Below are positions 6,177 through 17,851 of a stretch of DNA of 32,533 nt, in pieces (positions within the stretch are counted from its first letter, which is position 1; each line of letters starts with the position of its first letter). The stretch comes from an uncultured Hyphomicrobiales bacterium (GTDB lineage: Bacteria; Pseudomonadota; Alphaproteobacteria; Rhizobiales; Aestuariivirgaceae). The notes under the pieces are model-generated. The model was not told the origin of the DNA and did not search any database. It saw only the letters and a list, made by a program, of their open reading frames with translations. Location of the stretch: NCBI GenBank assembly GCA_903951595.1, contig CAJBCQ010000213.1, forward strand, positions 1-32,533. Reading direction: 5' to 3'. The translations under genes were made by a program, and so were the position numbers.

Positions 6177-6407
6177 GGCAGTCTTTTCGATGAACTTCAC
6201 CGCATCGCCAACGGTCTGGATGGTTTCCGCAGCGTCATCGGGAATTTCAATGCCGAATTCTTCTTCAAAGGCCATGACCAGCTCGACGGTGTCGAGGCTG
6301 TCTGCGCCCAGGTCATCGATGAAGCTTGCCTCGATCGTCACCTTTTCGGCATCCACACCGAGATGCTCGATCACGATCTTCTTCACCCGCTCTGCAACGT
6401 TGCTCAT
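6171..6407 (-). CDS. acpP: Acyl carrier protein
   Basis: AcpP carries growing acyl chains as thioesters on a 4'-phosphopantetheine arm in the cytoplasm. The 78-residue acidic protein has the classic site [11 protein letters not shown] with Ser37 as the attachment residue, followed by helix II residues [16 protein letters not shown]. Length and sequence are those of the primary housekeeping ACP. AGGA stands about 10 bases before the ATG at 6407. In most related genomes fabG lies directly upstream; here an RTX gene separates them, so acpP probably has its own promoter in the 267-base gap before it. Confidence 0.98.
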
Positions 6408-6674
6408 CGTTTGTACGTCCTTGGTTTGTTAAGTCCGCCTGGGCGGCGGTATGACGATATAGCCCCGGCCCCCTGACCTGAAGCTTCCCCGAAAGGGTCT
6501 CCCCCCACTGGGTCGGCGGCTTCCTAACACAGTCAGCCGTTTCCTACAAAGAGGCAATCTACGGATGAGCAAGAAGGCAAGCAAGGGTTTCCGCGCGCCA
6601 ACCCCCAGCGCAATGAACTGGGGCGGAAATATATGATTTACTTAGTAAAAAGACGAAATTGACGCAGCAAAACC
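6408..6674 (-). promoter_or_regulatory. acpP upstream region: candidate promoter and dyads after the RTX gene
   Basis: This 267-base gap holds no gene that I can support. On the minus strand TTGCTT (6584-6579) and TAGATT (6561-6556) are 17 bases apart, a weak match to a sigma-70 promoter that would give a leader of roughly 140 bases. Near the acpP start, CCGCC/GGCGG (6435-6439 and 6445-6449) can form a small stem. Just after the RTX stop are a 13-base dyad TTTACTTAGTAAA (6637-6649) and a CCCCAG/CTGGGG stem (6603-6608 and 6618-6623). Neither is followed by a T run, so termination after the RTX gene is uncertain. Confidence 0.3.
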
Positions 6675-9578
6675 TTAGATCAACTGGAAATCAGCCTCGG
6701 TGAGCGGGGCTCCGGCGAGGCCTGTGAGGGTGATGGAGGTGTTGGCGTCAATCTGAAATTTCAGATTCAAACCCGATGTTTTGAAGGCCAAAACCATGTC
6801 CGCGAGGTCTTTTACGCCGTCTTTGTTGAAATCCCGCAACAGAGATTCGGACAGGTGGATGCGGTCTGAACCCTGTGCAAAATCTGTGATCACATCGCGG
6901 CCAAAGCCCCGCGTGAACACAAAAACGTCATCTCCAGCACCACCCGTCAATGTATCGGCACCGCCGCCGCCCCTGATGGTGTCGTTGCCGGCTCCACCAA
7001 ACAGCCGGTTAGCACCGGAATTTCCGACCAAATCATCATTATGGGCTGAGCCGATGAGATTCTCGAAGTTTCGGAAGCTGTCCCCCTCGGCATCACCACC
7101 GAAAGCGGTGCGGGCGTTGAGGTCGATGGTAACCGCTGAACTTGACCCAGCGTAAGAAAGCGTATCGGTGCCTTTGCCGCCATCCAGCCTGTCGGCACCC
7201 GCGCCACCTTCGATGACGTTGTTGCGGTAATTACCCGTGATGACATTGGCAAGTTCATTGCCGGTGCCATTGATGTGGCCCCTGCCCGTCAGCACCAGAT
7301 TATCCACCTCAGCCGACAGGGTGAAACTGGCGGAAGCGCGCACGAGGTCGGTGCCTTCGCCAGCCAATTCGGTGATGGTATCAGCGGCGTTGTCCACGAC
7401 ATAGGTATCATCACCCTTGCCGCCGATCAGGATATCGGCCCCAGCCAAGCCGTCGAGATAGTTATTCTGGTCATTGCCCGTGATTTGGTTAGCCGCCGCA
7501 TTGCCGATGCCATTGCGAGCTGTGCCGGACAGGGTGAGGTTTTCAAAATTGGCCCCGAGGGTCCAGTTGATATAGGTGATGACCGTATCGGTGCCTTCGC
7601 TTGCGTTCTCGAAAACCCGGTCCTTGGTGTTGTTCACATAGAAAATGTCGTCTCCACCGCCGCCGCGCATGATGTCGGCACCGGACCCGCCATCCAAAAT
7701 GTCATTGCCTTGCGCGCCTGTGAGCGTGTCGTTACCGCCGAAGCCGAAGAATTCACTTCCCGTGGCCGCCGCCGTCATGTTGTCGATATAGCGGGTGCCG
7801 TGGACGATCTGGATATTCGAAAGCGTATCCGTGCCGCCAAGGCCATCGCGGGCGGTTCCCAAGGCGAGATTGACGGTGACGCCCGTCAAGCCAGCTTTGC
7901 CATTGCCCCATTTGGCATTGTTGAGCAGGCCTTGGCCGAAATCATAATCAAATTCATAAGTGACAATATTGCGGCCACCGCCACCATTGATGATGTCATT
8001 GCCAGCAAACCCAGCGAAGATTTCATCGGCGGCACCACCGGTCAAGCTGTCGGCAAGGCCGGTGGCGTAGATTGCATCGATGCCCAATACCGTGTCGATG
8101 GTGCCAAAGCTATCTGTGACCGTACCTTCGGCCAAATCAGCGATGATGCCGAGTGTGCCGCCACGGCCTCGCTCCAAATCATAGCGCAAGCGGTCCAACC
8201 CCGCGCTGCCGGTAATCGCATCATTGCCGCGCATGCCTGCGGCTTGAAACCAGATGCCTTCGCCAAGATTGGCGGTTTTGATGGTATCGGCCTGATTGGT
8301 GCCGGTGATGGCTTCAATTTCGGCCACATAATCGGTTTCGCCATGCGAATCCGTGATGGTGATATAGCCGTCTATATCTGCTGCTTTGGTGAAATCAGCA
8401 TGGATTCCCTGAACTGCCGGATCATCAAGCTGGTCTGCGGCTTCTTGGGCATAATCGAGCCAGTCTTGCCCCGTTCCGCCCACGATTTCATCACTTCCAG
8501 CACCACCCACCAAGCGATCCGAGCCGTTGCCACCGATCAGAATATCATTGTCTTCGCCGCCAGAAAGAAAATCATCCCCGGCGCCACCATCCAGCCGATC
8601 ATCACCGCCACGGCCAGAGAAGATATTGTTTTCTCCACCGCCCCACATTTTGTCACGGAAGCCTGTGCCTTCAATGCCTTCGATTTTTGTGACGTAATCT
8701 ATGTGGTTGAATGTGTCTTTGATGGTGCCGGCCGCCATGCCGCCGTTGGCTCTGTCGGTAGCGAGATTGGCGATGACGCCAAAATAGGTGTCATTCTGTC
8801 GCAAATCCTCACGCAGATCGGCATCTAAGGCAAATTCGTCAAGCTGATATTGCACAATGTCGATGCCATTGCCGCCGATCAGCCTGTCATATCCGGCAAG
8901 CCCCATGAGATAGCGTGTTTCACCGCCTGCAACGGAGTTGGAAATGAGCGTGTCATTGAGAAATGTGCCGCGCACCTCCTCAATGTCGATGAGCCTATCG
9001 GTGCCTCCGGTTCCATCCTTGAGCGTGAGCTTGCCTTTCGAGAGGGACATGGTGATGCCGACGGTGCCTTGGCTGTAATCGGCGATGTCGTGATCATTCG
9101 CGTCATTGTTCGCTGCGGTGCCGTCTAGCGTGTCGTGGCCGCGTCCGCCGTAGAAACTATCCTCGCCTGCGCCACCGCGCAGCGTGTCATTGCCTGCAAG
9201 GCCATAAAGCTTGTCATTAGCGGCTGTGCCCGTGATGTCATCGGCACCTGCCAGCAGGATCGACAAGGGGTCGGCGCTTTGCAGCATTTCGTTGAATTTG
9301 GCAGCGGTGAGCGACAGGCCGGTTACTGTGATGACCTGAGTGGCGGGTGTGCCTTGGAAAAGCTTAAGCCCGGTGATGGTGCCGCCTGTGATGCCCGTTC
9401 CGCTGAAGGCGAGGCTTCTGCCGGAAATCTCCCAGAAATCATTCGGGTTCGCGTCATTGGCAAAGCGCAGCAGTTTACCGGATTGGATCGGGGTAAGATT
9501 GGAATAGTCGCTCCAATCAATTGAGCTGAAGTGAAAGCCCTCACCAAGAACTGGCGAGCGAAGTATGACATTCGGCAT
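6675..9578 (-). CDS. Large RTX calcium-binding protein, probably type I secreted
   Basis: The 967-residue acidic protein is built mostly of glycine/aspartate nonapeptides of the GGxGxDxLx type, for example GNDTLRGGAGEDSFYGGRG and GGDDRLDGGAGDDFLSGG. These bind calcium and fold into beta-rolls after secretion. It has no N-terminal signal peptide, and the C-terminus (FTRGFGRDVITDFAQGSDRI, ending ADFQLI) resembles the uncleaved signal of type I secreted proteins. Residues 1-110 are not repeat-like and I do not recognise them; no protease, lipase or epimerase domain is visible. The ATG at 9578 has GGGGAA six bases upstream; a GTG at 9596 is less likely. No type I exporter genes are in the window. 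It lies, in the same direction, between fabG and acpP, an unusual place. Function is unknown: surface layer, adhesin or matrix protein are possible. Confidence 0.88.
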   Translation of the reverse strand: MPNVILRSPVLGEGFHFSSIDWSDYSNLTPIQSGKLLRFANDANPNDFWEISGRSLAFSGTGITGGTITGLKLFQGTPATQVITVTGLSLTAAKFNEMLQSADPLSILLAGADDITGTAANDKLYGLAGNDTLRGGAGEDSFYGGRGHDTLDGTAANNDANDHDIADYSQGTVGITMSLSKGKLTLKDGTGGTDRLIDIEEVRGTFLNDTLISNSVAGGETRYLMGLAGYDRLIGGNGIDIVQYQLDEFALDADLREDLRQNDTYFGVIANLATDRANGGMAAGTIKDTFNHIDYVTKIEGIEGTGFRDKMWGGGENNIFSGRGGDDRLDGGAGDDFLSGGEDNDILIGGNGSDRLVGGAGSDEIVGGTGQDWLDYAQEAADQLDDPAVQGIHADFTKAADIDGYITITDSHGETDYVAEIEAITGTNQADTIKTANLGEGIWFQAAGMRGNDAITGSAGLDRLRYDLERGRGGTLGIIADLAEGTVTDSFGTIDTVLGIDAIYATGLADSLTGGAADEIFAGFAGNDIINGGGGRNIVTYEFDYDFGQGLLNNAKWGNGKAGLTGVTVNLALGTARDGLGGTDTLSNIQIVHGTRYIDNMTAAATGSEFFGFGGNDTLTGAQGNDILDGGSGADIMRGGGGDDIFYVNNTKDRVFENASEGTDTVITYINWTLGANFENLTLSGTARNGIGNAAANQITGNDQNNYLDGLAGADILIGGKGDDTYVVDNAADTITELAGEGTDLVRASASFTLSAEVDNLVLTGRGHINGTGNELANVITGNYRNNVIEGGAGADRLDGGKGTDTLSYAGSSSAVTIDLNARTAFGGDAEGDSFRNFENLIGSAHNDDLVGNSGANRLFGGAGNDTIRGGGGADTLTGGAGDDVFVFTRGFGRDVITDFAQGSDRIHLSESLLRDFNKDGVKDLADMVLAFKTSGLNLKFQIDANTSITLTGLAGAPLTEADFQLI
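7170..7652. repeat. Tandem 80-residue repeat within the RTX gene
   Basis: Two consecutive units of 240 bases (80 codons), starting on the minus strand at 7652 and 7412, encode similar segments. The first begins DDIFYVNNTKDRVFENASEG and the second DDTYVVDNAADTITELAGEG. Each continues through NLTLSG/NLVLTG and a GNxxANxITGN motif to a GGKG end. The repeat is clear in protein and divergent in DNA, so it is an old duplication. Confidence 0.75.
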
Positions 9579-9628
9579 GAAAAGTTCCCCGGTCACAGCA
9601 AGAAGCGCGACCGGGTTATAGGGTTGGA

Positions 9629-16194: not shown

Positions 16195-16333
16195 GAGTCG
16201 TGTTATTCACACGCGAGGATTGCGTCAGAATCTCACGTCAATTGACGGGAAATATTCTTTTCCAGCCTGTGAATAACGGGATAATCGTCAAGTCGAAGCT
16301 TCGTTACGCGGCCAGCCCTGCTACAGAAGAGTC
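16195..16333 (+). promoter_or_regulatory. dnaB upstream region: inverted DnaA boxes, palindrome and three GANTC sites
   Basis: TTATTCACA (16203-16211) and its complement TGTGAATAA (16268-16276) both match the DnaA box TTATNCACA and form a 10-base perfect inverted repeat with one flanking base. Near the centre lies the perfect 12-base palindrome CGTCAATTGACG (16236-16247). GANTC sites, the CcrM methylation motif, are at 16195-16199, 16228-16232 and 16329-16333, the last directly before the dnaB ATG. A GATAAT at 16280-16285 could be a -10 element, with the second DnaA box just upstream of it; no good -35 is seen. The motifs are seen; cell-cycle control of dnaB by DnaA and methylation is inference. 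The rest of 16083-16333 holds no gene. Confidence 0.6.
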
Positions 16334-17851
16334 ATGGATCAAGCATATAGTCTCAAGCCTCGCCTCAGCCTTGCCGGATCAGAACCTGATACGGGCGATG
16401 CGAGCTATCGGCAGGCGCCGCATAATCTGGAAGCCGAGCAGTCGCTTCTGGGGGCTATCCTCGTGAATAACGAAGCCTGCGATCGCGTGACCAGCTTTCT
16501 AATGCCGGAGCATTTTTACGAAGGCGTGCATGCGCGCATTTTCGAAGCGGCTTCCACCCTGATCCGCGCGGGCAAGCTTGCCTCTCCTGTGACGCTCAAA
16601 ACTTATTTCGAGCGCGATGAGACGCTGAATGAAATCGGCGGGCCTGCTTATCTTGCGCGCCTTGCTGCCGCGGCCACAACGATTATCAATGCCGAAGAAT
16701 ATGGCCGCACGATCTATGAGTTGGCGACCCGCCGCCGCCTCATCAGCATCGGCTCGGACATTGTGAATGACAGTTTCGACACGCCGGTAGATTTGACCGC
16801 GCGCGATCTCATCGAAGGGGCCGAGCAGAAGCTTTATGAAATCGCCGAAACGGGCCGCTATGGGCAAGGCTTTCAGCCTTTCGGTACGGCACTGACGGAA
16901 GCCATTGATCTGGCCGCAGCGGCTTATCAGCGCGATGGGGGGCTTTCGGGGGTTTCGTCGGGTTTCCGGAATATCGACGAGAAGATGGGTGGCTTGCAGA
17001 GGTCGGACCTCATCATTCTGGCCGGTCGGCCCGCTATGGGCAAAACCTCGCTTGCTACCAATATCGCCTATCATGTCGCCAAGAATTATCGGGCGGAACA
17101 CAAGCCGGATGGCACGGTGGATGTGAAGGACGGGGCGGTGGTTGCGTTCTTCTCGCTGGAAATGTCGGGTGAACAGCTGGCTACGCGCATCATCTCAGAG
17201 CAGGCGGGAATCCCGTCTGAAAAAATCCGGCGCGGTAAAATCACGGAAGAAGAATTCCACCGACTTTCGGCAACCGCTGGTGAGCTGCAATCGCTGCCGC
17301 TTTATATCGACGCGACTGGTGGCCTGACCATCGCCCAATTGGCCGCGCGCGCGCGTCGTCTGAAGCGTCAACGTGGGCTTGGTCTTATCATCGTGGATTA
17401 CCTCCAGCTTCTCACTGGCTCCTCACGCAAGGCTGCGGAAGGCCGCGTGCAGGAAGTTACCGAAATCACGGTGGGGCTGAAGTCTCTGGCCAAGGAACTG
17501 GCGGTTCCCGTCATCGCGCTTTCCCAGCTTTCGCGCCAAGTCGAAAACCGCGAAGACAAGCGTCCGCAATTGGCTGACCTTCGTGAATCCGGCTCGATCG
17601 AACAGGACGCCGATATCGTGATGTTCGTTTATCGCGAGGAATATTATCTGGGCCGCGCCCAGCCGCAGCTCAACACGCCGGAATTTTACACCTGGCAGGA
17701 AAAGATGGCGAAGGTGGAGGGTATTGCCGAGGTCATTATCGGCAAACAACGCCACGGCCCCACGGGAACCATTGAACTGCACTTCGAAGGCAGTTTGACA
17801 CGCTTCTCCGATCTGATCAGAGACGATCATCTTCCGGAGCAATTCAACTGA
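16334..17851 (+). CDS. dnaB: Replicative DNA helicase DnaB
   Basis: DnaB is the hexameric 5'-3' helicase that unwinds DNA at the replication fork and recruits primase. The 505-residue protein has the N-terminal domain beginning at QAPHNLEAEQSLLGAILVNN. The RecA-like ATPase domain has Walker A GRPAMGKTS (about residues 231-239), FFSLEMSGEQLATR, Walker B LGLIIVDYLQLL and the DLRESGSIEQDADIVMFVYR motif near the C-terminus. An insertion near residue 258 (EHKPDGTVDVKDGAV) is of a kind often found in alphaproteobacterial DnaB. No intein is present. The gene follows a 251-base gap with DnaA boxes and is 14 bases before alr. Confidence 0.98.
   Translation: MDQAYSLKPRLSLAGSEPDTGDASYRQAPHNLEAEQSLLGAILVNNEACDRVTSFLMPEHFYEGVHARIFEAASTLIRAGKLASPVTLKTYFERDETLNEIGGPAYLARLAAAATTIINAEEYGRTIYELATRRRLISIGSDIVNDSFDTPVDLTARDLIEGAEQKLYEIAETGRYGQGFQPFGTALTEAIDLAAAAYQRDGGLSGVSSGFRNIDEKMGGLQRSDLIILAGRPAMGKTSLATNIAYHVAKNYRAEHKPDGTVDVKDGAVVAFFSLEMSGEQLATRIISEQAGIPSEKIRRGKITEEEFHRLSATAGELQSLPLYIDATGGLTIAQLAARARRLKRQRGLGLIIVDYLQLLTGSSRKAAEGRVQEVTEITVGLKSLAKELAVPVIALSQLSRQVENREDKRPQLADLRESGSIEQDADIVMFVYREEYYLGRAQPQLNTPEFYTWQEKMAKVEGIAEVIIGKQRHGPTGTIELHFEGSLTRFSDLIRDDHLPEQFN

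Follow-up and report, generated by a model that had tools for sequence, protein, structure and literature searches.

A conserved DnaA box before dnaB as a probable operator for DnaA control of helicase transcription in an uncultured Hyphomicrobiales bacterium

Positions 16195–16333 of the stretch of DNA analysed here (the window; 32,533 nucleotides)—contig C213 of genome G000, which comprises 264 contigs and 2.72 Mb—probably form the promoter region of dnaB, in which the proximal DnaA box would act as a conserved operator for DnaA control of helicase transcription. The region is most likely a conserved switch that ties helicase supply to the start of replication, rather than an origin; switches of this type are known from Caulobacter. 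The assignment of dnaB to the Caulobacter DnaA regulon is already known; what we add is a distinction between those parts of the region that are conserved and those that are incidental, the description of a composite element and a class-wide comparison, for which we claim no priority. Class-wide retention of a site before dnaB would point to a core connection between the initiation of replication and the supply of helicase.

Results

The dnaB locus

The organism was placed in a family of Hyphomicrobiales with Aestuariivirga and Taklimakanibacter among its named members, and is the sole member of its genus among the genomes compared. The replicative DNA helicase gene dnaB occupies positions 16334–17851 on the plus strand and encodes a protein of 505 amino acids (NCBIfam NF006606, E-value 1.1e-227, and TIGR00665; Pfam PF03796 and PF00772). 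Its neighbourhood is that of an ordinary chromosomal gene, in the order rpsF, a gene for a DUF2232 membrane protein, rplI, a cyclopropane fatty acid synthase gene, an HbpS-like gene, dnaB, alr, an MlaE permease gene and radA. All of the boxes, the palindrome and the GANTC sites discussed below lie within the 251-bp gap 5′ of dnaB, where G+C content is 51%, compared with 59% for the window, a value that is not unusual for a promoter. The genome encodes DnaA, GcrA and a CcrM-type protein with a RAMA domain.

Two exact DnaA boxes (TTATTCACA) face each other in this gap, as an earlier note on this DNA had described, with 56 bp between them: a distal box at 16203–16211 on the plus strand and a proximal box at 16268–16276 on the minus strand, both within 131 bp of the dnaB start codon. 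The 9-mer TTATNCACA occurs 29 times in the 2.72-Mb genome, compared with 35 occurrences of a reversed-pattern control, and thus shows no enrichment over the genome as a whole. No second contig in the genome carries two copies, and the pair at dnaB is the only close pair; by an arithmetic estimate, about 0.03 pairs within 100 bp would be expected for 29 uniformly scattered sites. The close pair before dnaB is beyond chance.

The facing geometry itself was considered as a conserved feature and set aside: pairs of such spacing were found in only four of 100 genomes and, judged by coordinates, lie at dnaB only here. Tight inverted pairs were seen before dnaB in four loci from other orders (L223, L241, L298 and L302), where DnaA-like boxes face each other with only 3 bp between them, as in TTATTCACA GGC TGTGAATAA.

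Conservation of the proximal box within the family

Of the 69 family genomes, 62 yielded a DnaB, and the sequence upstream of its gene was examined in 56 of these. An exact box lies within 200 bp of dnaB in 22 of the 56, and a one-mismatch box in 27. In most of the family, the proximal box is kept about 66 bp before the dnaB start codon, mostly on the minus strand and at −65 to −77, while the surrounding DNA has diverged between genera. Conservation of the boxes before dnaB in relatives, which the earlier note had proposed as a check, was thus confirmed for the proximal box and not for the distal one, which has no counterpart at the same place in relatives and is specific to this lineage. The earlier suggestion that DnaA controls dnaB is well supported by the conservation of the proximal box, together with the Caulobacter precedent. 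Three observations on the sequences count against the operator reading: genus g3 of the same family shows only poor matches and no clear box within 200 bp of dnaB; genus g10 carries its box (TTATCCACA) at about −92 and in the opposite orientation (plus strand); and relatives do not share the distal box.

These patterns also bear on whether the boxes might be DnaA titration sites or mere remnants, with no effect on dnaB transcription. The lack of genome-wide enrichment and the unconserved distal box fit that account. Against it, the proximal box keeps its orientation and a nearly constant distance from dnaB from genus to genus, in surroundings that have diverged, and boxes are strongly enriched before dnaB across the class, as reported below; titration would have no need of a fixed distance to the gene. 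We consider this explanation very unlikely.

A composite element at the proximal box

When 39 sequences were aligned on the box, the resulting logo read C-TGTG(G/A)ATA-n-CG-n-G-n-ATAA, with little conservation in the flanks. The version in the window is CTGTGAATAACGGGATAA, in which the second half is one base shorter. This second half (CGGGATAAT; 16277–16285, plus strand) directly follows the box and might be either a weak abutting DnaA site or a −10 element. The first of these is favoured, because its conserved bases (xGxGnATAA) follow the DnaA box form TGTGnATAA, free fifth base included. Further 9-mers of this kind occur among relatives. Several members of genus g5 show a third one (TGTGGATAG CGGGCATAA GGCGCATAA), Bradyrhizobium and its relatives have TGTGAATCGTGCATAA before dnaB, and Brucella-like and Rhizobium-like genomes have a tandem TGTGAATCA-n-TGTGRRT at 10 bp.

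A pattern search for the composite motif across the 69 family genomes returned 30 matches, 22 of them at dnaB. The motif was also considered as the mark of a wider regulon, which we rejected: in the neighbours that were scanned, the other eight matches have no type of gene in common. One copy of the composite DnaA element lies at the start of hemE (URO-D), in locus L210 at position 1501 (G013:C404). In Caulobacter, hemE is the neighbour of the origin.

Promoter elements and the sign of control

Many family members carry a GCTATCA-like element 10–17 bp before the dnaB start codon. The housekeeping −10 element of Caulobacter is GCTANAWC, which the family element resembles. In the window, the corresponding sequence is GCTACAGA (16320–16327, plus strand), a putative −10 element of a nearly leaderless dnaB transcript; this GCTA-type element recurs in the family. 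If GCTACAGA is the −10 element, the transcript would be nearly leaderless and the centre of the proximal box would lie some 62 bp ahead of the transcription start. This is a classical position for an activator, for which reason we prefer activation as the sign of control.

The opposite sign would follow if DnaA repressed dnaB. The box and xATAA would then form an operator that overlaps a promoter with GATAAT (16280–16285) as its −10 element, and bound DnaA would block RNA polymerase in a negative feedback. The composite element does set the box 3–4 bp before xATAA, which is CATAAT or TATAAT in many relatives, and the dnaA gene of Escherichia coli is repressed by its own product (PMC8203912). 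However, the last base of the supposed −10 element is not fixed (G in 16, T in 14, C in seven and A in two of the 39 sequences), the 39-sequence logo shows no conserved −35 element ahead of it, the GCTA-type element recurs closer to the start codon and Caulobacter dnaB is reported to be DnaA-dependent by expression (PMC8203912). We judge repression unlikely.

GANTC sites and the palindrome

Three GANTC sites lie within 140 bp, as the earlier note had pointed out: GAGTC at 16195–16199, GAATC at 16228–16232 and GAGTC at 16329–16333, the last directly against the start codon at 16334. GANTC is depleted about three-fold in the window (34 observed, compared with 116 expected), so three sites in 140 bp represent a real local excess. 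Across the family, GANTC density is 9.7 per kb before dnaB, whereas coding and downstream sequence has 1.8 per kb. An intergenic GANTC bias is usual in CcrM-bearing Alphaproteobacteria (PMC3973325), and the excess before dnaB fits this general bias. GANTC positions before dnaB are not fixed: sites shift between genera, and several relatives have few or none. The position of the first site in the window is not conserved and that of the second not generally so; the third has a counterpart at −5 in relative L012, whereas most relatives are without one there.

Control of dnaB by CcrM, which the earlier note had raised, is possible but unsupported at these exact sites, given that GANTC positions shift between genera. 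In a stronger proposal, the cell-cycle control of dnaB would run chiefly through the GANTC cluster, methylated by CcrM and read by GcrA, with a secondary part for the DnaA boxes. This proposal draws on the CcrM-type and GcrA proteins encoded in the genome and on the high GANTC density before dnaB, but is set against the shifting positions, the relatives with few or no sites and the generality of intergenic GANTC enrichment in the class (PMC3973325); we judge it improbable. The region resembles CcrM/GcrA-controlled promoters of Alphaproteobacteria in having promoter GANTC sites and in the presence of both proteins, and differs from them in that GANTC positions before dnaB are not conserved.

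The 12-bp palindrome CGTCAATTGACG, reported between the boxes, is indeed present (16236–16247) and is probably incidental. We considered it as an operator and rejected this, since the window holds 22 perfect 12-bp palindromes and this one is absent from relatives; it does not look functional.

Location of the replication origin

The earlier note had also held that a chromosomal or accessory replication origin should not be dismissed here, and DnaA boxes, lower G+C content and GANTC sites beside a replication gene are what such a reading would draw on. Several lines of evidence argue against it. In the complete relative G017 (a single contig, compared with 264 contigs for our own genome), sampled GC skew turns positive at about 2.3–2.7 Mb, with dnaA at 2.94 Mb and dnaB at 5.26 Mb, far from the switch; this profile is coarse, comprising twenty 20-kb samples, two of which do not fit (skew is negative at 4.17 Mb and close to zero at 6.8 Mb). 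The gene neighbourhood of dnaB is an ordinary chromosomal one, and only two boxes lie there. The densest DnaA-box cluster in the genome is not at dnaB, a denser one being found on contig C240. Both the sampled skew in G017 and the C240 cluster disfavour an origin at dnaB, which we regard as extremely unlikely.

The C240 cluster is intergenic (L337, G000:C240, about 6320–6470), has genes for a flavin reductase and an MFS transporter as neighbours, and comprises dense DnaA boxes, GANTC sites and a TTAA-N7-TTAA site of the CtrA type. From these motifs it appears more origin-like than the dnaB region and is a candidate origin of this genome.

Comparison across the class

The Caulobacter DnaA box consensus, [TC][TCG][AG]TCCACA (as quoted in PMC2877005), was sought in 88 dnaB upstream regions of 200 bp, spread over many families of the class outside our own order. 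It was present in 36 of the 88, compared with 1.3 (maximum 5) in shuffles of the same sequences and none for the reversed pattern. No consensus box was found within 200 bp of dnaB in 52 of the 88, the majority, which is a further point against the operator reading. Over all long loci, with the family included, the consensus occurred in 55 of 143 windows upstream of dnaB and in 52 of 3815 other 200-bp windows from the same loci. These control windows are mostly coding DNA, and base composition is more fairly controlled for by the shuffles. Because the samples are related, neither set of counts amounts to strict probabilities.

Within the Hyphomicrobiales, a DnaA-like box before dnaB takes the form TGTGAATCR, which holds a GANTC (CcrM) site. 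It was seen at −95 to −138 in twelve loci (L063, L066, L074, L081, L083, L084, L086, L103, L104, L106, L107 and L108), and also at −92 (L057) and −34 (L060). The free base of YGATnCACA before dnaB is T 17 times and C twice in the Hyphomicrobiales; in the rest of the class, that of YTATnCACA is C in 32 of 38.

Discussion

In Caulobacter, dnaB has been reported as part of the DnaA regulon, being DnaA-dependent by expression and having predicted boxes (review PMC8203912, citing Hottes et al., 2005). The regulon described for Caulobacter crescentus includes gcrA, ftsZ, podJ, mipZ and hdaA, with dnaB and dnaQ assigned by expression and predicted boxes (PMC8203912), and four promoters tested in Caulobacter were activated by DnaA, some of them through a single box (PMC3193534). 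Our region shares the regulator and the target gene dnaB with that regulon, and its box matches the Caulobacter consensus or is one base off, with one to several boxes per promoter (PMC8203912, PMC3193534, PMC2877005). It differs in that the box belongs to a composite element whose distance from the start codon is nearly constant, in that a second exact box faces the first 56 bp away and in that the evidence here comes from sequence comparison.

DnaA regulons are said to vary greatly among species (PMC8203912). Like the E. coli dnaA and nrdAB promoters, the dnaB region would combine strong with weak (ATP-form) sites, DnaA boxes there too lying at genes for replication or nucleotide synthesis (PMC8203912). 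The E. coli targets are genes other than dnaB, and the sign of control differs between them: dnaA is repressed, whereas nrdAB is activated or repressed according to the level of DnaA and its nucleotide (PMC8203912).

Under activation of dnaB, our preferred reading, DnaA would bind the proximal box, aided by the weaker abutting site and, in this lineage, by the distal box. Bound DnaA would activate dnaB, the expression of which would rise when DnaA is active around the start of replication. Input from CcrM and GcrA through the GANTC sites is possible and would be secondary.

More tentatively, DnaA control of dnaB might be an ancient, class-wide alphaproteobacterial circuit in which many dnaB promoters carry a short tandem array. 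In such an array, one or two weak 9-mers would accompany a strong box, either directly next to it or at 10 bp, and a small DnaA filament that responds to the level of DnaA-ATP would be seeded there; in several Hyphomicrobiales families, the CcrM site within the TGTGAATCR box would couple DnaA binding to methylation state. We see this extension as possible, though with the balance against it. The set of promoters defined here is suited to testing the action of DnaA-ATP against that of DnaA-ADP, as well as coupling between DnaA and CcrM methylation.

Elsewhere in the window, positions 6675–9596 on the minus strand encode a 973-amino-acid protein with nine stretches of RTX calcium-binding repeats (PF00353), which is probably a secreted calcium-binding protein.
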